Source: Chloroflexota bacterium (GTDB lineage: Bacteria; Chloroflexota; Limnocylindria; QHBO01). Taken from it: 64,000 bases of DNA. The stretch is taken from contig QHBO01000048.1 in NCBI GenBank assembly GCA_003243965.1, positions 1 through 64,000 of the forward strand. Direction: 5' to 3'. Positions 1,678 to 45,421 of the stretch are shown here, piece by piece. Under the pieces are notes generated by a model, which was not told the origin of the DNA, did no database searches, and saw only the letters and a program-made list of their open reading frames with translations. Position 1 is the stretch's first letter. Each line of letters starts with the position of its first letter. The translations under genes and the position numbers were made by a program.

Positions 1678-2217
1678 ATGGCGGAGCGCACCCTCTCATC
1701 GGAGCGCCATTTCTCGGGCACGCTGCTGACCTTGCGCGTCGACCAGGTGGAGCTCACCGATGGCCGACGCAGCCACCGGGAGATCGTCGAGCATCCCGGA
1801 GCGGTGGCCATCGTCGCCTGGGACGGGGCGCGGCTCGCGCTCGTCCGACAGTGGCGGCACGCGGTCGGGCGGGACATGCTGGAGGTGCCAGCCGGAACGC
1901 TGGACGCGGGCGAGGAGCCGGAGAGAGCCGCGCGCCGCGAGCTGGCGGAGGAGTGCGCCCTCGGGGCGAAGCGCTGGCAGGCCGGCCCGCGCTTCTTCAC
2001 CGCCCCCGGCTTCACGACCGAGGAGCTGACCGTCTACCTTGCGACCGGCCTCCACGCGACCGAGGCGCAGCAGGCGGACGACGAGGACCTCGAGGTCGTG
2101 TGGCTGACACTGGAGGACGCCGTGGCCGCGGCCGACGACGGGCGGATCGCGGACGCCAAGTCGCTCGTCGCGATCGGGTGGCTGGCTCGCCACCTGCAGA
2201 CGCACGGCGAAACCTGA
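1678..2217 (+). CDS. Nudix hydrolase, ADP-ribose pyrophosphatase-like
   Basis: Probably hydrolyses ADP-ribose or a related nucleoside diphosphate derivative in the cytosol. The 179-residue length and the N-terminal beta-sheet layout (SGTLLTLRVDQVELTDG) match the NudF/ADP-ribose pyrophosphatase group. The Nudix box GTLDAGEEPERAARRELAEE keeps the catalytic RE..EE residues, but the terminal Gly of the consensus (EExGU) is Ala in EECAL. The start MAERTLSS is preferred over an ATG four codons upstream because of the -10-like element and Nudix N-terminal length. The stop overlaps the next start (TGATG), so the DUF421 gene is translationally coupled. Confidence 0.88.
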   Translation: MAERTLSSERHFSGTLLTLRVDQVELTDGRRSHREIVEHPGAVAIVAWDGARLALVRQWRHAVGRDMLEVPAGTLDAGEEPERAARRELAEECALGAKRWQAGPRFFTAPGFTTEELTVYLATGLHATEAQQADDEDLEVVWLTLEDAVAAADDGRIADAKSLVAIGWLARHLQTHGET

Positions 2218-2738
2218 TGTGGAACCTCGCCGTCCCGGCCTGGGAGCTCGCCTTCCGCTCCGCCGTCATCTACCTGGCGATGCTGGCCGCGCTGCGGCTG
2301 TTCGGAAAGCGGGAGGTCGGCCAGTTCACGCTCTTCGACCTGGTGCTCATCCTGCTGCTGGCCAACGCGGTCCAGCCCGCGATGACCGGTCCCGACACCT
2401 CGCTGGCGGGCGGGCTGGTGATCATCGCCACGCTGGTGGTCGAGAACCGGCTGATCGCGTTCCTCCGCAGCAAGGTCCCGGCGTTCGACCGCCTGCTGGA
2501 GGCATCACCCACCGTCATCGGCGAGGACGGGAAGTGGGTGGACGCTGCGTTCCGCCGCGAGGACCTCAACATCGACGACGGAGAACGTGCCCTGCGCGAG
2601 CACGGGGTGGCGAGCATCGAGGAGGCCAAGCTGGTCGTGCTCGAGGCTGACGGGTCGATCTCCGTGGTGCCCAAGGACAGCAGCAGCGGAGGCGGGCGAC
2701 GCCCGCGCCGCCGGGCACGCATCTTTCGCAGCCGCTGA
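2217..2738 (+). CDS. DUF421/YetF-family membrane protein
   Basis: A 173-residue protein of the YetF/DUF421 family, whose biochemical role is unknown. Three hydrophobic segments occupy roughly residues 7-95, with the family signature FGKREVGQFTLFDLVLILLL between the first two. The cytosolic C-terminal domain carries the conserved motifs TVIGEDGKW and AAFRREDLNIDD, then a Ser/Gly linker and an Arg-rich tail. The ATG overlaps the Nudix stop by one base, so the two genes form an operon. It is shorter than Bacillus YetF, which usually has a longer C-terminal domain. Confidence 0.85.
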   Translation: MWNLAVPAWELAFRSAVIYLAMLAALRLFGKREVGQFTLFDLVLILLLANAVQPAMTGPDTSLAGGLVIIATLVVENRLIAFLRSKVPAFDRLLEASPTVIGEDGKWVDAAFRREDLNIDDGERALREHGVASIEEAKLVVLEADGSISVVPKDSSSGGGRRPRRRARIFRSR

Positions 2739-2788
2739 TCGCACGCCGAGTCCGGCCCGGCTGGCGGGGCACTGGCAAGCCACTTGCC

Positions 2789-3940
2789 TTGGCCGTGGCC
2801 GTGACGCTTCCCCTCGACTCGCTCGAATCGGCCCAGGAGGCGGGCCTGCGCTATGTGGTCGACAACCGACCCGGCATCCGGCGCGCGCGCGCCGGCAGAA
2901 GCTTCAGCTACATCGGTCCGGATGGCACGCACGTCCGTGATCTGGAGACGGTGGCATGGATCAAGCGGCTGGCCATCCCCCCGGCGTGGACCGATGTCTG
3001 GATCTGTCCGGACCGGCGCGGGCACATCCAGGCCACGGGGCGCGACGCCAGGGGCCGCAAGCAGTACCGCTACCACCCTCGCTGGCGCGAGGTGCGCGAC
3101 CAGGTGAAGTATGGGCGGATGGTGGCCTTTGGGCGCGCGCTGCCGCAGATCCGAGCGCGCGTCGAGGAGGATCTGGGCAGACCGGGCCTGCCCCGCGAGA
3201 AGGTGCTGGCCGCCATCGTGCGCCTCCTCGAAAAGACTCGCATCCGGGTGGGGAACGAGGAGTACGTGCGCCAGAACCGCTCCTTTGGACTCAGCACCCT
3301 GCGCGACCGGCATGCGCACATCGCGGGGTCCACCATCCGGCTCCGATTCAACGGCAAGGCGGGCAAGGTCCACGAGGTCGAGCTCAGCGACCGGCGGCTT
3401 GCGCGGATCGTGGCCCGCTGCCAGGATCTCCCCGGCCAGGAGCTGTTTCAGTACGTGGACGACGACGGGCAGCAGCACAGCATCGACTCCGCGGACGTCA
3501 ACGCCTACCTCCAGCAGATCAGCGGCCAAGACTTCACCGCCAAGGACTTCCGGACCTGGGCCGGGACGGTCCTCGCCGCCTGGGCGTTGCGCGAGTTCGA
3601 GGCGGTCGACTCCCAGGCGCAGGCCAAGAAGAACATCGTTCGCGCCGTGGAGCAGGTGGCCGAGTGGCTGGGCAACACGCCGGCGGTCTCACGCAAGTCG
3701 TACGTGCACCCGGTGGTGCTCGACGCCTATCTCGACGGCGACACCGTCCGCGAGGCGCGCGAGAAGGCCGATCAGGCGCTCAGCCAGGACCTGCCGCGCC
3801 TCGAGCCTGAGGAGGCGGCGGTGCTGGTGCTGCTCCGCGAGCGGCTGAGCCGCGAGGAGCGGGGCCAGCGCCCGCGAGCCGGCGTTTGCCGGGCGACGCC
3901 TCAGGCGGCGGAGTCGAGGCGGTCGAGGGCCCGGCGGTAG
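2789..3940 (+). CDS. DNA topoisomerase IB, poxvirus/bacterial type
   Basis: Relaxes supercoiled DNA by transient 3'-phosphotyrosyl cleavage of one strand. The 383-residue length fits the compact bacterial TopIB family. Visible signatures are the N-terminal beta domain (FSYIGPDGTHV, IPPAWTDVWICP), the catalytic-domain motif FGLSTLRDRH, and NTPAVSRKSYVHP containing the active-site Tyr (about residue 305). The start is read as TTG at 2789; in-frame GTG codons at 2795 and 2801 are alternatives, and no -10 or ribosome binding site decides between them. The 3' end overlaps the convergent TPR gene by 40 bases. Confidence 0.93.
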   Translation: MAVAVTLPLDSLESAQEAGLRYVVDNRPGIRRARAGRSFSYIGPDGTHVRDLETVAWIKRLAIPPAWTDVWICPDRRGHIQATGRDARGRKQYRYHPRWREVRDQVKYGRMVAFGRALPQIRARVEEDLGRPGLPREKVLAAIVRLLEKTRIRVGNEEYVRQNRSFGLSTLRDRHAHIAGSTIRLRFNGKAGKVHEVELSDRRLARIVARCQDLPGQELFQYVDDDGQQHSIDSADVNAYLQQISGQDFTAKDFRTWAGTVLAAWALREFEAVDSQAQAKKNIVRAVEQVAEWLGNTPAVSRKSYVHPVVLDAYLDGDTVREAREKADQALSQDLPRLEPEEAAVLVLLRERLSREERGQRPRAGVCRATPQAAESRRSRARR

Positions 3941-4283
3941 TCCTCGCTCTCCGGCCTCAGGAAGGCGGCCATCCAGAGGTGCCGTCGTGCGCCCGCCAGG
4001 TCACCCAGTCGCCGGCACGACAGCCCGAGCCCGAAGTGCGAATAGTGCGCCAGCGGGTCCCGGTCGACGATCTCACGGAAGCGTCGGCGGCGAGACCCGG
4101 CTCGCCCTGGTTGAAGTAGGCTCGCCCCAGCGCCTCCAGGATCGAGGCCTTCCCGGGCTCCAGGCGGCTGGCACGTTCCAGGAGCACCGCCGCCGCGCCG
4201 GGATGGTGGTCCTCGAGGAGCTGGGAGCCGCGCTGGAAGAGCTCGTACGCGGACTCGCGATCGGGCTGCTGAGCGGACGCCAT
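3901..4283 (-). pseudogene. Small TPR-repeat protein gene, frameshifted
   Basis: The N-terminal frame reads as a tetratricopeptide protein (YELFQRGSQLLEDHHPGAAAV, then ASRLEPGKASILEALGRAYF). It leaves frame after GLAADA at the 4080/4081 junction. The continuation (REIVDRDPLAHYSHFGLGLS, then LGDLAGARRHLWMAAFLRP) is perfect TPR sequence in the next frame and ends at 3901. One missing base explains it; the span of 383 bases is not a multiple of three. The intact product would be about 127 residues. This may be a genuine recent null allele or an assembly error. The promoter hexamer is intact. Confidence 0.75.
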
Positions 4284-4291
4284 TGGCTGGC

Positions 4292-4297
4292 AGTCTA
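4292..4297 (-). promoter_or_regulatory. -10 hexamer TAGACT, TPR gene
   Basis: TAGACT lies 8 bases before the ATG at 4283, which implies a leaderless transcript. Confidence 0.55.
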
Positions 4298-4320
4298 GGG
4301 CAGACTCGACCGACAGACTG

Positions 4321-5376
4321 CTAGTCCCGCAGGTCGATGCGCTCCAGACGCGGGTTCTCGGTGCGCCCCGGGATCCTCCCCCGCTTGGCGATCGGTCTCC
4401 CATCGATCTCCTTGAGGTCACCGGTGAAGTCGATCGGGCTTGCGTCGCTGATCGCGCTGCCGACGGCGAACGAGTCGACCGGCGCCTCGACCTCCTTGAA
4501 GTACGCGATCCGGTCCGCGTCCAGCCCCCCGCTGACCACGATTCGGACGTGCCGATGACCGGCCTGGTCCAGGCGTGCGCGCACCTCCTTGACGAGGTCG
4601 GGCGTGACTCGGCCACGCTCACTGGGCGTGTCGAGACGCACTCCCCACAGTCGATCGCCGAGCGCATCGGCGACGCGAACCGACTCTTCCGCCTCGTCCT
4701 TGAACGTGTCGACCAGGGCAACGCGGGGAACGCTCGGGTCGATGTGGCGGTCGAACGCCTCCACCGCCTTCACCGTGTCGCCGAAGATGAGGATCAGCGC
4801 GTGCGGCATCGTCCCGGTCGGGGCCAGTCCCGCCAGCCGGGCGCCGGCCGGTGTGGAGGCACCGATGCAGCCGCCCACCACGCTCGCGTAGTCCATCTGG
4901 TCGGCGACCGATGGGTGGACGTGGCGTGCGCCGAAGCCGATGACCGGGATGGGCGCGGCGGCATCAACGATCTGGCGCGCGGCGGTCGCCCAGCCCGATG
5001 ACTGGGCCAGGATGCCCAGGATCGCCGTCTCGTACAGGCCGAAGGCCGAGTAGCGGCTTTCGATCCGCATCACCACTTCCTTGCGCGCGAAGCGGTCGCC
5101 GTCGTGCAGCGATTCGACGATCGGGGGCGGCTCGATGCGCTTGCCGTTGCCCAGGATCTCCCGCAGGTAGGCGAGCGCCTCCTGCGCGCCGCACAGGACG
5201 CCGGCGGCACGCGGGAACAGCTCCATGGTGACGACCGGGTCGAGACGTTCCGCAGCGAGGATTGTTCTGGTCCGCTCGAAGTAGGCGTCGGCCGTCTCGC
5301 CGGAGAGGACATCGGCGGCAGGCTGGAAACCGGGCGGCTGGAGGGCGCGAGCGGCGAGGAGATCGTCGATCGACAT
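4321..5376 (-). CDS. pncB: Nicotinate phosphoribosyltransferase
   Basis: NAD salvage enzyme joining nicotinate and PRPP to give nicotinate mononucleotide in the cytosol. The 351-residue product is of the short NAPRTase type. Visible hallmarks are the N-terminal AYFERTRTIL, the conserved GARHVHP segment with the His expected to be phosphorylated, the phosphate-binding strand VSGGLDADRI and the SFAVGSAI loop. The start follows a -10 hexamer by 8 bases. It stands alone, between the broken TPR gene and the glgC operon. NAPRTase versus the related NAMPT is called from length and from PIPVIGFGARHVHPSV-like sequence, so substrate assignment is slightly less certain than family. Confidence 0.88.
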   Translation of the reverse strand: MSIDDLLAARALQPPGFQPAADVLSGETADAYFERTRTILAAERLDPVVTMELFPRAAGVLCGAQEALAYLREILGNGKRIEPPPIVESLHDGDRFARKEVVMRIESRYSAFGLYETAILGILAQSSGWATAARQIVDAAAPIPVIGFGARHVHPSVADQMDYASVVGGCIGASTPAGARLAGLAPTGTMPHALILIFGDTVKAVEAFDRHIDPSVPRVALVDTFKDEAEESVRVADALGDRLWGVRLDTPSERGRVTPDLVKEVRARLDQAGHRHVRIVVSGGLDADRIAYFKEVEAPVDSFAVGSAISDASPIDFTGDLKEIDGRPIAKRGRIPGRTENPRLERIDLRD

Positions 5377-36309: not shown

Positions 36310-38214
36310 TCAGCTCTGGATCCCCGCCGGCTCCGCCTCGGCGAGGAACTGCTGACGGTAGAGCGTGGCGTACAGGCCCTGGTGGCGCAGCAGCTCAGCG
36401 TGGGTGCCACGTTCCACGATTCGGCCTCGGTCGAAGACCAGGATCAGGTCGGCGCGCAGGATGGTGGACAGCCGATGCGCGATGGCGATCGTGGTGCGCC
36501 CCTCCATCAATCGGTTCAGCGCCGCCTGGATGAGGCGCTCGGATACGGTGTCGAGGGCTGAGGTCGCCTCGTCGAGGATCAGGATCCGCGGGTCCTTGAG
36601 CAGGACGCGCGCGATCGCCACCCGTTGCTTCTCCCCGCCGGAGAGCTTGTAGGCCCGTTCGCCGACCACCGTGTCGTAGCCCTCGGGGAGCTCCAGCACC
36701 CGGTCGTGGATGGCCGCCGCCCGCGCAGCTGCCTCGATCTCGTACATCGTCGCCTCGGGTCGGGCGTAGCGCAGGTTCTCCAGCACGCTGGCATGGAACA
36801 GGTAGGTCTCCTGGGTGACGACCCCGATGCCCCGCCCAAGCGACTCGAGCGCGAGGCGGCGGACGTCGACAGCGTCGATCAGCACCGCCCCGACCTGCAC
36901 GTCGTAGAGGCGCGGGATGAGATAGGTGACCGTGGTCTTGCCGGCGCCCGAGGGTCCGACCAGCGCCACCAGCTGTCCTGGTTGCGCGTCGAAGCTGATG
37001 TCGGTGACGCCAAACGGCTGGATGGCGGTCGGCACGGCGCGCCCCTCGGCCTCGGCCGCCGCTGCCTCGGGAGCGACCGCCACGGCGCTGGGTGCCACCG
37101 GGTAGCGGAACGAGACATGCTCGAGACGCACCTCGCCGCGCATCCTTGTCGGCTCGAGCGCCACGGCATCGGGGGCGTCGGTGATCTCGTGCGGCAGCTC
37201 CAGGTACTCGAAGATGCGATCGAAGAGGGCGAGCGCGCCCTGGATCTCGACCTGGACGTTGAGCAGCTGGCCCATCGGGAAGAAGAGCCGGCTCTGGAGC
37301 GTGGTGAAGGCCACGATCGTCCCGATGCTGACGTGCCGGTCGCCGCCGATGATCAGCGACCCGGCCAGAAGGTAGACGAGCGCGGGACTGATGCTGAAGA
37401 AGGTGCCAATCAGCGCGAAGAACCAGCGGCCGATCATCTGCTGTCGGATCTGCAGGTCACCGAGGCGCCGCGACTCGCGGCGGAACTTCTCGATGCTCGC
37501 CCGCTGTCCACCGAACGTCTTGCTGAGCAGGATGCCGGAGACGCTCAGCGACTCCTCGGTGATGGCGCTCACCTCGGCGAGCGACTGCTGGGTGAGGGTG
37601 CTGACCTGGCGGCGCACCTTGCCGACGCGGAAGGTGATGTAGGCGAAGACCGGCATCATCCCCAGGCTCAGCGCCGTCAGCCGCCAGTCCAGGACCAGCA
37701 TCGCGATCACGGTGGTGGCCACCGTGGCAAAGTTGCTGAGCAGCGAGGCGGCGGTATCGGTCACCACCGATTGGACCCCGTTGACGTCGTTGCCGATGCG
37801 GCTCTGGATCTCGCCGGTCCGCGTCTGGGTGAAGAACCGCAGCGACATCCATTGCAGGTGGCTGTACAGCGCCAGGCGCAGATCGTCCATCACCCGCTGC
37901 CCGACGACGTTGCTGATGTAGCTCTGCCACACGCCGAGGAGGCTGGTCAGGATCGGGAGCGCGATCATCAGCCCGCATTGCAGGTAGACCAGGCCCAGGT
38001 CGCGTGGGCCGGTCAGGTTGTCGATGATCAGCTTGAGCAGGATCGGGTTGACGACCCCGATGCTGACCGTGACCAGGATCAGGACGGCGATGACCCCCAG
38101 GCGGCCACGGTATGGCCGGAAGAAGCCCGCGATGCGGGCCAAGGTCCGGCGTCCGCTCCCCGGTCGCGCCCGCAGGTCCACCTCCCCGCCGAAGCCGCCC
38201 CAGCCGCCTCTCAT
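36310..38214 (-). CDS. ABC-type multidrug/lipid exporter (TMD-NBD fusion)
   Basis: A half-transporter of 634 residues with six membrane helices (residues about 40-335) and a C-terminal ATPase. NBD motifs are Walker A GPSGAGKTT, signature LSGGEKQRVAIAR, and Walker B ILILDEATSALD. An Ala/Glu-rich insert of about 25 residues lies between the A-loop (FRYP) and the first strand of the NBD, not seen in most homologs. The start MRGGWGGFGG overlaps the PIG-L stop (ATGA); this removes a long, compositionally implausible N-terminal extension. Homodimeric export is likely; the cargo is unknown. Confidence 0.92.
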   Translation of the reverse strand: MRGGWGGFGGEVDLRARPGSGRRTLARIAGFFRPYRGRLGVIAVLILVTVSIGVVNPILLKLIIDNLTGPRDLGLVYLQCGLMIALPILTSLLGVWQSYISNVVGQRVMDDLRLALYSHLQWMSLRFFTQTRTGEIQSRIGNDVNGVQSVVTDTAASLLSNFATVATTVIAMLVLDWRLTALSLGMMPVFAYITFRVGKVRRQVSTLTQQSLAEVSAITEESLSVSGILLSKTFGGQRASIEKFRRESRRLGDLQIRQQMIGRWFFALIGTFFSISPALVYLLAGSLIIGGDRHVSIGTIVAFTTLQSRLFFPMGQLLNVQVEIQGALALFDRIFEYLELPHEITDAPDAVALEPTRMRGEVRLEHVSFRYPVAPSAVAVAPEAAAAEAEGRAVPTAIQPFGVTDISFDAQPGQLVALVGPSGAGKTTVTYLIPRLYDVQVGAVLIDAVDVRRLALESLGRGIGVVTQETYLFHASVLENLRYARPEATMYEIEAAARAAAIHDRVLELPEGYDTVVGERAYKLSGGEKQRVAIARVLLKDPRILILDEATSALDTVSERLIQAALNRLMEGRTTIAIAHRLSTILRADLILVFDRGRIVERGTHAELLRHQGLYATLYRQQFLAEAEPAGIQS

Positions 38215-38933
38215 TCGAGCGTGATCGACAGGAACGCCTGCGCCAGGCCGATGCCCTGCGGCTCCCCCGCCAACTGTGCCCGCTCGCGGACACGCGCGAA
38301 CACGCGTTCGTCGCCGACCTGGCTGGCGTGACGACGGATCGCCTCCAGTCCCAGCTCGAAAGTGTCCGCCACGTCGATCCACAGGTTCGGTTGCTCGACA
38401 CCGGTGAGCAGCACCTGGCGCACCTTCCACGGCTCGAGCCCCTCGCCGATCAGCTCCGGAAAGTTGAGCCGGTCGCGGGCCGCTGGGTAGACGGAGGCCA
38501 GGGTCGCCTCGCCGGTCGCCAGGTGATCGGGGTGACCGATGAACGGGTTGTGGTCCATGCGGCGCTGCGGATTCTGGGCGATGACCAGCTCTGGCCGGAA
38601 GCGGCGGATCTGGCGTGTGATGTCGCGACGCAGCTCGAGGCTGGGCATTAGGTAGCCGTCGGCATAGTCGAGGTGCACGATCTCTCGCACGCCCAGGACA
38701 TCGGCCGCGGCGCGCTGCTCGGCGCGTCGCGTGGATGACAATTGCGCGGGCGTGACGGCCGGGTCGTCGGTTCCCTTGCCGCCATCGGTCGTCACGACGT
38801 AGTCGACCCGGGTGCCGCTGCGCGTCAGCCAGGCAATCGTGGCGGCGGCACCGAACTCGGCGTCGTCTGGGTGGCTGAAGATGACGAGCGCACGCTCGAT
38901 CGGGGTGATCAGCTCGTGACGTTCAAGGGTCAT
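38211..38933 (-). CDS. PIG-L/LmbE-family deacetylase
   Basis: A 240-residue zinc deacetylase with the canonical metal motif FSHPDDAEFG and the distal GHPDHLATGEAT site, both intact, unlike the paralog at 26066. The start MTLERHEL is selected because a TACGAT hexamer lies 9 bases upstream and a transcription terminator hairpin occupies the sequence beyond; a longer in-frame start at 38981 would begin inside that hairpin. The stop overlaps the exporter ATG, so deacetylase and ABC exporter are coupled and may process and export a GlcNAc-containing compound; inference. Confidence 0.92.
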   Translation of the reverse strand: MTLERHELITPIERALVIFSHPDDAEFGAAATIAWLTRSGTRVDYVVTTDGGKGTDDPAVTPAQLSSTRRAEQRAAADVLGVREIVHLDYADGYLMPSLELRRDITRQIRRFRPELVIAQNPQRRMDHNPFIGHPDHLATGEATLASVYPAARDRLNFPELIGEGLEPWKVRQVLLTGVEQPNLWIDVADTFELGLEAIRRHASQVGDERVFARVRERAQLAGEPQGIGLAQAFLSITLE

Positions 38934-38942
38934 GCGCAGCGC

Positions 38943-38948
38943 ATCGTA
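38943..38948 (-). promoter_or_regulatory. -10 hexamer TACGAT, PIG-L/exporter operon
   Basis: TACGAT lies 9 bases before the ATG at 38933 and abuts the upstream terminator hairpin. Confidence 0.5.
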
Positions 38949-38949
38949 T

Positions 38950-38988
38950 GACGGGAGTGCCGAGGGGGGGAACCACGGCACTCCCGTC
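38950..38988 (-). terminator. Terminator-like hairpin after methyltransferase-like gene
   Basis: Perfect 13-bp arms (38950-38962, 38976-38988, GACGGGAGTGCCG and complement) around a 13-base G-rich loop lie 42 bases beyond the stop of the upstream operon. There is no T tract. Confidence 0.75.
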
Positions 38989-39030: not shown

Positions 39031-41841
39031 TCACTCGCCGAACATGGTGAGCTGCTCGCCGCCGCGCTCGATCAGCGGATCGAGCCCGAGGATCGGCTCG
39101 AGTCGGTCCAGGCTTGCCCCGCGCCGCGCGACGAGCGCCTCGAGGTGGGGCCACTTGAGCACATGCCAGTTCTGGCGCTCCATCTCCGCTCGCAGCCACG
39201 GGGAGCGCTCGAGCTTGAGCCGCAGGAGATCCGAACGCTCTGCGGGGATGACCAGGAAACGGGCCTGCTGGTCGCTGACCGGGATGGCACGTCCGCGGCG
39301 CAGGATCGACTCGCCGACCATGGCGGTCCACTCGACCTCGAACAGAAACGCGAGCTTGCCGCGGACGTACCAGATGGCATCCACCTCGCCGAGCGCGTCG
39401 CCGGGGGCGCGAATCACGAGCGGGAGATAGACCCGTCGCTCATCGTCGCGCAGCCGATCTCCCAGTCGCCCGCCATCGGTCGTCCGGTCGTGCTCGCGCT
39501 TCGCGATCCAGGCCTTGACGCCTAGCCGATGGGCGTAATCGGCGAGCAGGCCCAGGATTCGTGCGTGGTCCGCCTGGCGCTCCGCGAGCGCCTCCTCGGT
39601 CCGCACCACCCCACGGTCGTCGACGCGGGCGTAGGCGGCCAGGCAGGCGCGCACCAACTCCTCGTCCGGCGCGGCGAGTCCCGGGAAGAGTGCGTAGATG
39701 CGGGCCACGAACGATGCCTCGTCGAGGCGGCCCGCCGTGGAGAGCACGGAGAAGGTCGCCCACTCGACACGGTCGGCCAGCGGCGATTCGGCGAGCTCGG
39801 GATTGCGAAGCCACCACAGAGGCGTGTGACCGTCCTCGAGGCGCACCAGGCGCGGATGGTCGTCACGCCACAGCTCCTCACGGAGCAGGGTTGCCAGCAC
39901 GGGGCGCCCGTTGAGCGCGCGCCCGTCATCGGTGGGCGTCCGCGGACGGTCGGTGCCGACGCCGCGCAGCTCCGCCACGCGCCGCAGCAGCCCGCTGCGT
40001 CCGGTCTCGACCAGGAGCGCGGCGGCGATGCGTGCCAGCCCGGCCGGCTCTCCTCGCTCCCGGAGCAGCCCGACCGCGGCATCTTCGATGGCCGCTGCCA
40101 GCTCGGGGTAGGTGAGGTGCCCGTCCTCGCCCCCCAATCGGAGGGGCTGCGCATCAACCGCGCGGCGCAGCCGGTCCTCGCCGGAGGGCTTCCGAAAATG
40201 AAGGGTGACGCCATCCCCCGAGCGGCGGGACTCGCGATGGACCACGTCCTCCAGCTCGAGCCCCGTCGCCACCGCGGCGACCGCGACGGTCAGCATCCAG
40301 TCCGGGTTGTCGCCCTCGAGAACCAGGCTGAAGCTTCCTCCGGGCTTCAGCGCCGAGGCGGCCGATGCCACTCCGCGCCGGATGGCCGCCATCTCGGCCC
40401 CGTCCATCTGGGCCGACGGTCCGCCGAAGAGCGGCTCCAGGCGCAGGGTCTCGGCGGCCTCGCGGCCGATGAGCCAGCCGGTGGCGAGGTATTCGAACGA
40501 GAGCTCGTCGGCGGTGGCCGGCGCGGACGGGGTGCCGAGCACCAGGTCGACGCTGTCGGTCGGCAGGTACTGGCCGACCACCGCGGGCCGGCATCGGATC
40601 CAGAACACGTTTGCGGCGGTGACGCCGCCGAGGTCGTCGAAGTCCGTCGCGAATCGCGCGGCGCGCCGCTCGCGTCCAAGCGCCGCGAGCGCCGTGCGCA
40701 CATCGGCATACGCACGTTCGAACAGCTGCCAGACGTTGACCTCCCGATGGTGCCGCGAGGCCGGCTGCCGCACGTGTCCGTTGGTGATCCGAAGCGAGGC
40801 CACGCGTCCGGGATAGCCGTTCAGGCGACTGGCGGGAAGCAGGCAGGCGGCAAGGGCCAGGCGCAGGGTGGCGGCCACCGCCGTATCGCGAATCTCCGCA
40901 TCGATCTTGTTGGCGATCGCCTGCAGCGCGTAGAGGTTTCGGGGCGTGTAGAGGTCCAGCAGCTCATCGACGAGCTCGGTGCGGCCGTCGAGCACCGGAA
41001 ACCGCTCGTGAAGCTGCTGGTAGGAGAGCCCAACACGATTCGACTCGCTGCTCGGAGGGGCCGGCGCGGGATCGGGACGGACGGTGGACGCGTAGCGCGG
41101 ACCGCTGGCGCTCAGCGCCGTCGGCGGATCGGCGACGCGTGGCGGCGGGGCTGGCGGGCCGCCGGCCTCACCGAGCGGCGCGTCGGGGTCGTCCAGTCCG
41201 CCGGCCGGCATCTCGGTCAGCCCGATCGGTGCGGGCGGCAGGTCCTCTTCCGCCTCGGCCGAGACGATTGGGATCGGGTCCGGTACCGGGGTCCGCTTGT
41301 CCAGGCCGAGCTTCGCGAGGTCGATCTCGTCGATCGGCGCGAATCGCTCCACTGGGCCGCCGACGGCGATATCGCACTGTGCACAGCGATACACCTTGCG
41401 GCTCGGCGCCTCGGCTCCACGCGGCCAGACGAACTGGTCGCCGACCACCGGCCGGCGACAGGCGGCGCAATGGGTCGCGTACAGCTCGTCGAGATGCTGG
41501 CGGAGCGGGACGTCGACCCGGCGTGAGCTGGCGATCTGGCTGAATGCAGCGTCCAGCACGCTGGACTCCGCTGCGGTGAGGAAGGCGATCGCCGCCAGCT
41601 GCGCGAACGGGCTGGGGTCGGCGGCGACGGCCCGCATTCCCGCGGCGATGGCCCGACGAGCGGTCCAACCGGTGCCGGCCCACGGATCGAGCACCGTGTC
41701 GCCGGGGACGCCGGCAACGGCCAGCTCGGCGTCGAGGATGTTGTCGGCTGGCGAAGGAAAGTAGCGCTCGAGCAGCGCCAGACCGGGGCGGCGACGCGGC
41801 AGGACGACATGATCGAGTCGCTTCCGCTCGGCCTCGCTCAT
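39031..41841 (-). CDS. DNA methyltransferase-like protein fused to PD-(D/E)XK-like domain
   Basis: A 936-residue protein without a recognised full-length family. An N-terminal AdoMet-binding motif I, VLDPWAGTGWTARRA (Asp52), resembles amino-methyltransferases (DPFAGSGT). A zinc ribbon follows (C125, C128, C153, C156), then a Pro-rich linker. The motif IV position reads SVDLVLGTPSAP (436-439) where active enzymes have (D/S)PPY, followed by ALKPGGSFSLVLEG. The C-terminus (about 819-890) has EVDAIWYVRG then FLFEVEWT, an Asp plus ExE pattern of PD-(D/E)XK-like nucleases, and FLVIPAERSDLLRLKL. It is in an operon 6 bases after a TPR gene. Possible repair or defence protein; inference. Confidence 0.6.
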   Translation of the reverse strand: MSEAERKRLDHVVLPRRRPGLALLERYFPSPADNILDAELAVAGVPGDTVLDPWAGTGWTARRAIAAGMRAVAADPSPFAQLAAIAFLTAAESSVLDAAFSQIASSRRVDVPLRQHLDELYATHCAACRRPVVGDQFVWPRGAEAPSRKVYRCAQCDIAVGGPVERFAPIDEIDLAKLGLDKRTPVPDPIPIVSAEAEEDLPPAPIGLTEMPAGGLDDPDAPLGEAGGPPAPPPRVADPPTALSASGPRYASTVRPDPAPAPPSSESNRVGLSYQQLHERFPVLDGRTELVDELLDLYTPRNLYALQAIANKIDAEIRDTAVAATLRLALAACLLPASRLNGYPGRVASLRITNGHVRQPASRHHREVNVWQLFERAYADVRTALAALGRERRAARFATDFDDLGGVTAANVFWIRCRPAVVGQYLPTDSVDLVLGTPSAPATADELSFEYLATGWLIGREAAETLRLEPLFGGPSAQMDGAEMAAIRRGVASAASALKPGGSFSLVLEGDNPDWMLTVAVAAVATGLELEDVVHRESRRSGDGVTLHFRKPSGEDRLRRAVDAQPLRLGGEDGHLTYPELAAAIEDAAVGLLRERGEPAGLARIAAALLVETGRSGLLRRVAELRGVGTDRPRTPTDDGRALNGRPVLATLLREELWRDDHPRLVRLEDGHTPLWWLRNPELAESPLADRVEWATFSVLSTAGRLDEASFVARIYALFPGLAAPDEELVRACLAAYARVDDRGVVRTEEALAERQADHARILGLLADYAHRLGVKAWIAKREHDRTTDGGRLGDRLRDDERRVYLPLVIRAPGDALGEVDAIWYVRGKLAFLFEVEWTAMVGESILRRGRAIPVSDQQARFLVIPAERSDLLRLKLERSPWLRAEMERQNWHVLKWPHLEALVARRGASLDRLEPILGLDPLIERGGEQLTMFGE

Positions 41842-41847
41842 CGGCTC

Positions 41848-42681
41848 CTACGGTTCTTCGATCAGCTCCTCTTCAAGCTCAGGCTCGGCCGAGAACTCCG
41901 GGAGGCTGGTGTCGAGCTCCTCGACCTCCTCGGGCTCCTCCTCGAGCTCCTCGCTCTCGTCCTCGTCATCGTAACGGAGCGCAGTGCCCTTGATGTACGG
42001 CCGGACGTCACCGGGACGGGCAGTGGTGTTGCCGGGGAACGACACCTTTCCGAAGTTGTTCGGGTGGGCGAAGACCTCCCGGATGATGATCCGCGCCTCG
42101 TCCTTGGTGACGACCGTCATCGCCGCATCGTATCGGTTGCCGCCGTTGATTAGCTTGACCAGCCGGGTGGCGACGCGCGGCTCGACCTGGCCCACCTCGA
42201 GACCGCCGACGAAGCCGAGCAGCTGGTCGCCCTCCACGCGCAGCTCCACCGCGTCGCCGGGGGAGACCGGTGCCAGCTGGCGCGCCGGGCCAAGATTCAG
42301 CAGCCGAGCGTGCCCTGTCTTGCCCATCTCTTCGATGAAGCTCGACGCCGATGCCTTCTCGGTCCGTCCGTCACCGGCCAGGGTCTTCTGGGCCGGCTGC
42401 TCGCCGGCCAGCAGCACGCGCAGCCGCTGGACGTTGCGCTCCGCAATGCGATTCGTCGCGTCGCGCACCAGCGCCTGCTCGTAGGCCTCGAGCGCCTCCG
42501 CGTGCCGGCCCAGCTCGGCCAGCGCCTTGCCCAGGCGATTGTACGCGTCGGTATCGGCGCCGACCTCGAGTAGCTGGCGGTTCGCCTCGACCGCCGCGTC
42601 CCATTCGCCGCGGGTGGCGTGCGAGATCGCGGTCTCGGCGAGGCGTCGCTGCCGGTTGGTGTCCGTGTCCTGGATCGTCAT
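41848..42681 (-). CDS. TPR protein with C-terminal beta domain and acidic tail
   Basis: A 277-residue soluble protein, first gene of the operon with the methyltransferase-like fusion. Residues about 10-95 form TPR-like helices (AYNRLGKALAELGRHAEALE). Residues about 125-225 form a beta-rich domain (PGDAVELRVEGDQLLGFVGG, then RLVKLINGGNRYDAAMTVV and RIIIREVFAHPNNFGKVSF) that weakly resembles HIRAN-type nucleic-acid-binding folds. The last 45 residues are mostly Glu and Asp. The start MTIQDTD follows AAGGA 10 bases upstream and agrees with the promoter at 42767. Its function is unknown; the pairing suggests a partner or regulator of the downstream protein. Confidence 0.65.
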   Translation of the reverse strand: MTIQDTDTNRQRRLAETAISHATRGEWDAAVEANRQLLEVGADTDAYNRLGKALAELGRHAEALEAYEQALVRDATNRIAERNVQRLRVLLAGEQPAQKTLAGDGRTEKASASSFIEEMGKTGHARLLNLGPARQLAPVSPGDAVELRVEGDQLLGFVGGLEVGQVEPRVATRLVKLINGGNRYDAAMTVVTKDEARIIIREVFAHPNNFGKVSFPGNTTARPGDVRPYIKGTALRYDDEDESEELEEEPEEVEELDTSLPEFSAEPELEEELIEEP

Positions 42682-42834: not shown

Positions 42835-43611
42835 CTACGCGCCGTGGAACACGAGCGCGACGGCCACGCCCAATACCGCGAGCAATCCGAATTCCAGCGC
42901 CACCGCCCGCCCGGACGAGCCACCCTGCAGCGCATCGGCCGCGCCGGCCCACGAGTAGAACGCGAGCGCCAGGACCGCTGGGCCGACCACCCCCGGCAGC
43001 CGAAGGAGGCTCAGTGCCGCGCCCACCTGGGCCACCGCACCAAGGTGCAGAAGGCCCTGACCGACCGCATGCGCCCCGGAGCCTGCGCGGGACTCGGCGG
43101 AACGGAGGGTGAGGGGAAGCGTCATGAGCAGGACCAGCACGACCGGCGGCGGCCACACGTGCTCGCCGAAGAGGCGGTAGATGCCGGCCGCACCGGCGAA
43201 GACGATGGCGACCAGCGCGAGGTCGAGTGCCGTCTTGGAGCCGATCTCCCGCGAGGCGCGCAGCTCGAGCCACAGGACCGACCACAGCAGGATGGCGACG
43301 ATCGGTACCAGGAGCAGCGATACCCCGCCCGGAATCAGCCGTCCGCCGAGGGTGATCGCCACCGCGGCGAGTGCCAGGGTCGCATAACGCGAATATCCGA
43401 GCCCCGGCCGGGACGGACCGATGAGGTACGCCGCCCCAAAGCCGCCGATGCCCAGCTGGAAGGCGACCACCACCGCCAGGCCGAGCGGGGTCACCAGCCA
43501 GCCGACCGCGGTCAGCAGGGCGAGCCCGGCCGCCAGGGCCACCGCCTCCGGGCGGTCGATTCGACGCAGGATCGCCTCCGCCCGCTTGTCCCGGAACAGG
43601 CGCGCAATCAT
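42835..43611 (-). CDS. Polytopic membrane protein of unknown function
   Basis: A 258-residue protein, almost entirely hydrophobic after a basic N-terminus (MIARLFRDKRAEAILRRIDR). About seven membrane segments alternate with short loops containing GPSRPGLGYSRY and REIGSKTAL. I do not recognise a family. The ATG overlaps the polX stop (ATGA), which discards a longer in-frame extension and makes it the second gene of the polX operon. No transporter or enzyme motif is visible. Confidence 0.7.
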   Translation of the reverse strand: MIARLFRDKRAEAILRRIDRPEAVALAAGLALLTAVGWLVTPLGLAVVVAFQLGIGGFGAAYLIGPSRPGLGYSRYATLALAAVAITLGGRLIPGGVSLLLVPIVAILLWSVLWLELRASREIGSKTALDLALVAIVFAGAAGIYRLFGEHVWPPPVVLVLLMTLPLTLRSAESRAGSGAHAVGQGLLHLGAVAQVGAALSLLRLPGVVGPAVLALAFYSWAGAADALQGGSSGRAVALEFGLLAVLGVAVALVFHGA

Positions 43612-45359
43612 CCGATCAGCGCCAGCAGCGCGTCGGCCGACCGGGTGCCCGCCACCTGGTCCGGCTCGAGCCACGCCCGGCGGGCGATCGAGACCGCATA
43701 ATCGAGGTACTCGAGCTCCTCGGTCCGATGCGCATCGCTCGCCACCGTGAGCCGTGCGCCGGCCTGGGCGGCGGCGCGCGCGAGCGATTCGTCGAGGTCC
43801 ATCCGCGGGCTGCCGTTGATCTCGAGGAGCGTCCCGCTCTCGGCCGCCGCCGCGAACACCCGTGGCCAATCGAGCGGCAGCGGGTCGCGGACGTTGACGA
43901 TCTTGCCGGACGGATGTGCGAGCACGTCGACGTGCGGGTTCCCGATCGCGCCCAGCGCCCGCCGGGTCAGCCGCTCGCTCGGCTGGCCCCGACCGGTATG
44001 CAGGCTGGCGATCACCACATCGAAGGTGGCGAGCATCTCGTCGGGGTAGTCGAGAGCACCGTCGGCGCGGATCTCGAGCTCGGTGCCGTGCAGGATCCGG
44101 AACGGCGCCAGCTCGACGTTAAGGCGTCCGATCTCCTTTGCCTGGGCAGCGACCAGCTCGGCGCTGAGCCCCTTGGCGATCCCCAGCGATGGCGAGTGAT
44201 CGGTGAGCACCATGTACTCCGCCCCGCGGCCGCGTGCGGCGCGGGCCATCGCCTCGATGCTGTCGACCCCATCGGTCCAGCTCGAATGGGTGTGCGTGTC
44301 GCCGCGGACATCGCCACGCTCCACCAGGCGCGGGAGTCGATTCTCGGCGGCCGCGGCGATCTCTCCCTCGTCCTCCCGCAGCTCGGGCGGCACCCACGCG
44401 AGGTCCAGCCGCTCGTACACCTCGGCCTCGGTCGGCGCGAGCAGCAGCTCGCCGGTGTCGACCACCTTGAAACCCTTCTCCGAGAGGGAGAGCCCTCGAT
44501 CGAGCGCGCGGCCGCGCAGCGCGACGTTGTGATCGCGACTCCCCGTGAAGTGCACCAGGTGGCTGCCCCACGCGGCCGGCGGGCAGACCATCAGGTCGAC
44601 CTGCGGGCCGTCCCGAAGCACGATGCTCGACCTGTCGGTGCCTGCGGCCAGGACATGGTCGACCTGTGGCAGGCCGTCGAGCGCAGCCATCAGCGGCCCC
44701 GGATCGTCGACGGCCGCAAGCAGGTCGAGATCGCCGATCGTCGCCCGGCGGCGACGCAGCGACCCGGCCGCCTCGAGGCGACGGACGCCCGCGACGTCGC
44801 GAAGCGCGTCGATGATGTCCCGTACCAACCGGTCCGCGTCGTGCAGCAGCAGACGGGTGCTTCGCTGCGCAATCCGGGCGATACCGGCCAGGACGTTCTG
44901 CTCGGTGCGTGCCGACAGCCCCTTCACCCCGCGCAGCTGCCCCTGCTCGGCGGCAAGCCGTAGCTCGTCGAGCGAGGTGATCCCAAGCGCCGCGTGAAGC
45001 AGCCGGACGGTGCGCGGCCCGACCCCGGGGACGTGCAGCATCTCGAGCATCCCGGACGGGACCTGTGCGCGCAGCCGCTCGTGATAGCCGAGGTGCCCCG
45101 TTTCGGCCAGCTCGGCGAGCTTGGCCGACAGCGCGTCGCCAGCTCCGGGGATCTTCGGCGGGGTTCCGTGCCGGAAGAGGGCGGCCACATCGTCCGGGTA
45201 GCGCTCGACCGCATCGGCCACGCGACGGTACGCGACTGCCTTGTAGACGACCTCGCCCAGGATGTCGAGCATATCGGCAATCTCCGAGAAGGTCCGGGCC
45301 AGGTCACTGTTGCCGATCACGGAATCGTCGGTGCGCGGCGCGGCTCTGGGTCGTGGCAT
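43608..45359 (-). CDS. polX: Family X DNA polymerase with PHP domain
   Basis: Repair polymerase of 583 residues. It has an N-terminal 8-kDa-like domain with helix-hairpin-helix motifs (IPGAGDALSAKLAEL, VPGVGPRTVRLLHAALG), the nucleotidyltransferase core (AGSLRRRRATIGDLDLLA with the catalytic Asp pair), and a C-terminal PHP domain with metal motifs GDTHTHSSWTDG, LTDHSPSLGI and VLAHPSGKI, giving 3'-5' exonuclease or AP endonuclease activity in homologs. The start MPRPRAAPRT is 10 bases from a TAGAAT hexamer. An upstream in-frame start is rejected because it lies in a terminator hairpin. Confidence 0.94.
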   Translation of the reverse strand: MPRPRAAPRTDDSVIGNSDLARTFSEIADMLDILGEVVYKAVAYRRVADAVERYPDDVAALFRHGTPPKIPGAGDALSAKLAELAETGHLGYHERLRAQVPSGMLEMLHVPGVGPRTVRLLHAALGITSLDELRLAAEQGQLRGVKGLSARTEQNVLAGIARIAQRSTRLLLHDADRLVRDIIDALRDVAGVRRLEAAGSLRRRRATIGDLDLLAAVDDPGPLMAALDGLPQVDHVLAAGTDRSSIVLRDGPQVDLMVCPPAAWGSHLVHFTGSRDHNVALRGRALDRGLSLSEKGFKVVDTGELLLAPTEAEVYERLDLAWVPPELREDEGEIAAAAENRLPRLVERGDVRGDTHTHSSWTDGVDSIEAMARAARGRGAEYMVLTDHSPSLGIAKGLSAELVAAQAKEIGRLNVELAPFRILHGTELEIRADGALDYPDEMLATFDVVIASLHTGRGQPSERLTRRALGAIGNPHVDVLAHPSGKIVNVRDPLPLDWPRVFAAAAESGTLLEINGSPRMDLDESLARAAAQAGARLTVASDAHRTEELEYLDYAVSIARRAWLEPDQVAGTRSADALLALIG

Positions 45360-45369
45360 GTGGTCGCCA

Positions 45370-45375
45370 ATTCTA
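45370..45375 (-). promoter_or_regulatory. -10 hexamer TAGAAT, polX
   Basis: TAGAAT lies 10 bases before the ATG at 45359. Confidence 0.55.
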
Positions 45376-45386
45376 GAGATGCAGCA

Positions 45387-45421
45387 CAAACGGCCCTGCC
45401 CAATGTGGGCCGGGCCGTTTG
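45387..45421 (-). terminator. Hairpin after small charged-protein gene
   Basis: 10-bp outer arms (45387-45396 and 45412-45421, CAAACGGCCC and complement) enclose a 5-bp inner stem. It lies 22 bases after the small upstream gene and separates it from polX. Confidence 0.75.

Follow-up and report, generated by a model that had tools for sequence, protein, structure and literature searches.

A vertically inherited gene pair of a Chloroflexota class, encoding a degenerate DNA methyltransferase with a nuclease-like domain and a TPR/HIRAN-like protein

What might a bacterium do with a protein that joins a methyltransferase of broken catalytic motif to a nuclease-like domain? The question is raised by two genes in the window, here meaning the whole 64,000-nt stretch of Chloroflexota DNA analysed, which belongs to contig 48 of a 2.2 Mb genome. 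An earlier note, made from the sequence alone, had proposed a two-gene unit on the minus strand at 39031-42681, and both reading frames are open there:

41848..42681, minus strand: TPR / HIRAN-like / acidic-tail protein, 277 aa from its ATG
39031..41841, minus strand: degenerate Zn-ribbon DNA methyltransferase with a PD-(D/E)XK-like domain, 936 aa

Only 6 nt separate the stop codon of the TPR protein from the ATG of the 936-aa protein, and the two frames are open and conserved across dozens of genomes, far beyond chance. The dN/dS ratios are low both for the large gene (0.07-0.16, eight close pairs) and for the TPR gene (0.05-0.17, close pairs), and the unit holds up as proposed. The Pfam and NCBIfam libraries searched contain no family dedicated to either protein, and no prior description of the pair was found in the open-access literature.

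The methyltransferase half of the large protein contains three recognizable elements:

41668..41697, minus strand: motif I, VLDPWAGTG region (residues 49-58)
41374..41469, minus strand: zinc ribbon, C125-x2-C128...C153-x2-C156 (residues 125-156)
40525..40536, minus strand: degenerate motif IV, GTPS (residues 436-439)

All three had been recognized before, and all three are borne out by comparison with homologues from the class. Motif I is that of an amino-methyltransferase, reading DPWAGTG at residues 52-58. Its D52 is invariant (52/52 class homologues), while the remainder is intact only in the window's own family f1, whose homologues carry DPWAGTG, and is altered in f2, f3 and f4 (family labels are those of an automatic genome grouping). 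The four cysteines of the zinc ribbon (C125, C128, C153 and C156) are all present in 52/52 class homologues. GTPS occupies the place of (D/S/N)PP(Y/F), and the motif is broken in the whole class, an intact (D/S/N)PP(Y/F/W/H) being present in none of the class homologues and in just one of the 76 aligned homologues, the remote methyltransferase L131. A further homologue, L107 (G070:C318), with a partial motif IV (RPPY) and with DPFCRGG as its motif I, stands at an intermediate stage of the decay.

The order of the elements (motif I, zinc ribbon, helical region, motif IV place) is shared with methyltransferases of the PglX / DUF1156-MTase type (PADLOC PDLC02541, PDLC03312), from which the window's class differs in its broken motif IV, in that no BREX/Pgl partner genes were seen near it and in being encoded by a core gene. 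PADLOC MTase_II (PDLC03312) matches the 936-aa protein (3.9e-9, best stretch residues 45-105), and a class-wide profile matches the RsrI methylase in the PDB (1.1e-4); the Pfam N6_N4_Mtase profile (PF01555) scores 13.8 bits, below its curated cut-off of 26.7. From these motifs and matches, we read the half as a methyltransferase fold that was probably retained for binding, with methylation lost.

The remote methyltransferase L131 (G134:C34, ORF 1751-4630, minus strand) is a protein of 960 aa with DPFMGGG and DPPF intact and a PglX-like profile match of 5e-56, and has a similar D...EV C-terminal domain. Possession of both methyltransferase motifs alongside such a domain suggests an ancestral methyltransferase-nuclease fusion, and the window's protein has in L131 a candidate for its living ancestor. 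Two other loci are recorded in passing. At L123 (2547-5753, minus strand), one frame encodes a DNA methyltransferase (DPFGGNG, EPPF) together with a dihydroorotate dehydrogenase electron-transfer subunit, either a fusion or an assembly effect. At L108 (2775-5036, minus strand), a MrfA/HRQ1-like DEAD helicase with an MZB domain directly adjoins the large gene in G133.

The C-terminal part of the large protein was proposed to carry the Asp...ExE pattern of PD-(D/E)XK folds, and the residues are in place:

39127..39606, minus strand: PD-(D/E)XK-like domain (residues 746-905), D821...E835-V-E837

D821 is found in 51/51 class members with a residue at that position, and at position 837 an E or D is found in 49, leaving a single exception among the readable class homologues. 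Position 835 is more variable (32 E, 14 Q, 2 D, 1 K and 1 H), with E835 replaced by Q in f2 and by K in f4. In f10/f40 the catalytic residues D821, E835 and E837 are gone. Being eroded in two families and lost in others, these residues imply that cleavage cannot be a feature conserved everywhere. The domain is nevertheless the best-kept part of the protein between families, with 50% identity to f3, compared with 26-29% for the methyltransferase halves. ExE in place of ExK is the arrangement of BamHI. PMC8845596 cites BamHI D94N/E113K as a mutant deficient in catalysis.

Homology to restriction enzymes is reached through relatives in other Chloroflexota families, where the class HMM finds the C-terminal halves of L129 (378 aa, 1.3e-10) and L130 (432 aa, 3.1e-8). 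L129 matches the Type II restriction-enzyme profile REase_II (PDLC03534, 3.4e-15). The same profile matches 5/10 aligned C-terminal domains (best 7.6e-17), the window's own domain being without a direct match, and hhalign of the two C-terminal domain groups gives 97.3% (E 1.7e-11). In L129 (4299-5432, plus strand) and L130 (114-1409, minus strand) the related restriction-enzyme-like domain is joined to an EVE domain, which is recognized by Pfam in the N-terminal half of L129 and nearly so in that of L130; the two are probable modification-dependent restriction enzymes. A survey of EVE domains (PMC7641849) has no mention of Chloroflexi in its main text. Compared with REase_II and these EVE proteins, with which it shares a homologous C-terminal domain carrying D...E-x-E, the window's protein has a dead methyltransferase in the place of the EVE reader, and the first acidic residue of its E-x-E is eroded in f2/f4. 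Like Type IIG fusions, it has nuclease-like and methyltransferase parts in one chain; unlike them, its nuclease-like domain is C-terminal, its methylation site is broken and its gene is a vertically inherited core gene.

Structure prediction gives a mixed picture. The helices and strands predicted at residues 749-905 come in an order that fits PD-(D/E)XK with moderate confidence, with D821 and E835-x-E837 on the expected strands. However, the 936-aa protein as a whole is modelled poorly (pLDDT 49), and a Foldseek search with that full-length model returned no nuclease, only weak methyltransferase matches; nor was a solved relative of the C-terminal domain found by sequence. The proposal of a nuclease-like domain has support from restriction-enzyme homology and predicted topology, but not from whole-model fold matching. 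Both structure predictions used alignments of the window's proteins with f1-family loci only, and wider alignments might improve the model of the large protein.

The smaller protein had been described as having TPR repeats, a possible HIRAN-like domain and a very acidic tail, a description that agrees with the present analysis:

42400..42681, minus strand: TPR region (residues 1-94), five helices with pLDDT about 90, Pfam TPR_1 at 9.4e-9
42067..42324, minus strand: HIRAN-like six-stranded domain (residues 120-205), from AlphaFold2 and Foldseek
41851..41973, minus strand: acidic, predicted-disordered tail (residues 237-277), from sequence and low pLDDT

The 277-aa protein contains two TPRs, detected by Pfam, and its acidic tail, evident from the sequence, is kept phylum-wide. 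For the middle domain, Foldseek lists the HIRAN of HLTF (4s0n_D) among the best matches (E 5.6e-4, prob 1.00), with TMt 0.55-0.63 over the HLTF HIRAN entries. The predicted domain has the same fold as HIRAN of HLTF/Rad5 (PF08797), with six strands and a capping helix, but is without the N-x-x-D-x-NA signature, and is joined to TPRs with no helicase. HIRAN itself is a six-stranded barrel that holds a dinucleotide between Y72 and Y93 (PMC4666394). The PF08797 signature has no Pfam match in the TPR protein or elsewhere in the window's genome, and hhalign of the domain with Pfam-type HIRANs gives a probability of 0.2%. Since signature and profile comparison both fail, sequence membership in HIRAN is rejected, and the likeness is a statement about the predicted fold only.

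The large protein is a core protein of the class, with strong matches in 36/38 class genomes of the phylum sample and in 57/61 near relatives. Its gene is single-copy, and the tree of this gene agrees with the families of the hosts, needing for five of them no more than the minimum of 4 label changes. The distances of methyltransferase and TPR proteins correlate at 0.93, a value that shared descent alone would likewise give. Beyond the class, the large protein takes forms of 849-876 aa in f7, f15, f23 and f33, with the TPR gene elsewhere in the genome in f15, f23 and f33, while f10/f40 (Anaerolineae-like, at a guess) have shorter forms and no TPR protein. The TPR protein is in 221/301 Chloroflexota genomes sampled, and in most of the phylum it is present without the large protein. 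As each protein is found without the other in some genomes, the partnership is not obligatory. The phyla beyond Chloroflexota were covered by one contig scan with patterns suited to near relatives, and more distant homologues may exist there. One locus, L036 (JAICUY010000002.1), lies on a contig titled Steroidobacteraceae yet has the Chloroflexota gene order, and its label or bin looks wrong.

Two neighbours of the pair are conserved in the window's family:

43608..45389, minus strand: PolX-type polymerase/PHP protein, conserved upstream neighbour (Pfam, synteny in f1 and f3)
38211..38981, minus strand: PIG-L deacetylase, conserved downstream neighbour in the window's family, context only

PolX is upstream wherever an f1 locus extends far enough and also in most f3 loci, and PIG-L and an ABC gene follow downstream in f1; the window also has a LuxR-type regulator and a MgtE_N/CBS protein in the neighbourhood. 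In f2, a gene for a SPOR/WD40-like lipoprotein lies between the pair, and PolX was not found beside it in the little upstream sequence available there. In loci outside the class, a gyrA-like gene follows the TPR/HIRAN-like gene in two cases.

The earlier note had considered a defence role and called for a survey of defence islands, and on this point the evidence gives no support. No defence neighbours were found, the only PADLOC matches being generic ABC and LuxR-type domains, and BREX/Pgl partner genes (PglZ, PglY/BrxC) are absent near the pair. A mobile defence system, patchy, horizontally spread and lodged in defence islands, is ruled out by the core distribution, the vertical tree and the neighbours. 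No relative was found in the plasmids, phages and viral contigs searched, and spread by phage or plasmid is rejected. A working modification-dependent or Type IIG-like restriction system is quite improbable: it would account for the homology to restriction enzymes and PglX-like methyltransferases, and for the joining of related C-terminal domains to EVE modified-base readers in L129 and L130, but a single-copy core gene of vertical descent, lacking both mobile relatives and defence neighbours, is not what it predicts, and with no methylation expected, the host DNA would be unprotected unless cleavage requires a foreign modification. A role in RNA metabolism or translation, in which the TPR protein would be a factor tied to the ribosome or tRNA, and the large protein an RNA-binding relative of methyltransferases, also appears improbable. 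It draws on miaB, the immediate upstream neighbour of the TPR/HIRAN-like gene in 8/18 loci examined outside the class, and on weak Foldseek matches to rRNA methyltransferases (E above 0.3); against it, the neighbour in f1/f3 is PolX, not miaB, and in sequence the large protein is akin to DNA methyltransferases and to restriction enzymes.

Two other readings were weighed. The large protein may be a double pseudo-enzyme, inactive in both catalytic halves and serving as a DNA- or SAM-binding scaffold or regulator with the TPR protein as its adaptor. The class-wide loss of motif IV fits this, as does the persistence of the protein despite nuclease residues being eroded in f2/f4 and lost in f10/f40, and the intact motif I of f1 means that ligand binding could persist; the invariance of D821, the E or D kept at 837 and the conservation of the C-terminal domain above all other parts speak against it, and we consider it rather unlikely. 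We regard as unlikely, too, a DNA-surveillance nuclease domesticated in Chloroflexota from a restriction-modification fusion, in which the dead methyltransferase reads a sequence or modification, the ExE nuclease cuts, and the TPR/HIRAN-like protein positions it at DNA ends or forks with PolX.

Our tentative preference, held with less than even confidence, is for a domesticated, methylation-dead relative of restriction-modification enzymes that acts with the TPR/HIRAN-like protein in DNA maintenance; a domain make-up of restriction-modification type combined with the evolution of a core gene favours domestication. The ancestor would have been a restriction-modification-like fusion of a Zn-ribbon amino-methyltransferase with a PD-(D/E)XK nuclease, which lost methylation and turned into a core gene of vertical descent. 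Binding to DNA would most likely fall to the methyltransferase fold and zinc ribbon, and the f1 and f3 proteins may still cut or nick through D821/E835/E837 in the manner of BamHI, with ExE rather than ExK. The TPR/HIRAN-like protein, translated just before the 936-aa protein, would be the adaptor, with the TPRs for docking, the HIRAN-like domain for DNA structure and the acidic tail for a basic partner; the adjacency of the two genes throughout the class supports a partnership. Because PolX is the conserved neighbour, we infer a part in maintaining the chromosome or in DNA repair, in preference to phage defence. The repair or surveillance role raised by the earlier note would agree with the PolX linkage and the HIRAN-like fold. 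The miaB gene beside the TPR gene outside the class points away from DNA maintenance, and the weakest points of the domestication reading are a structure model short of high confidence, the erosion of nuclease residues in f2 and f10/f40, and the occurrence of the TPR protein alone in many genomes.

Restriction-modification genes are usually patchy and mobile, whereas here such a fusion, its methylation site broken, has been kept as a core gene by an entire class, and persists in further-decayed form in the group that may be Anaerolineae-like. On the tentative reading preferred here, this would be a case of defence machinery recruited into the upkeep of the cell. If the pair were named, genes could be annotated across hundreds of genomes, and DNA maintenance would become a hypothesis open to test.
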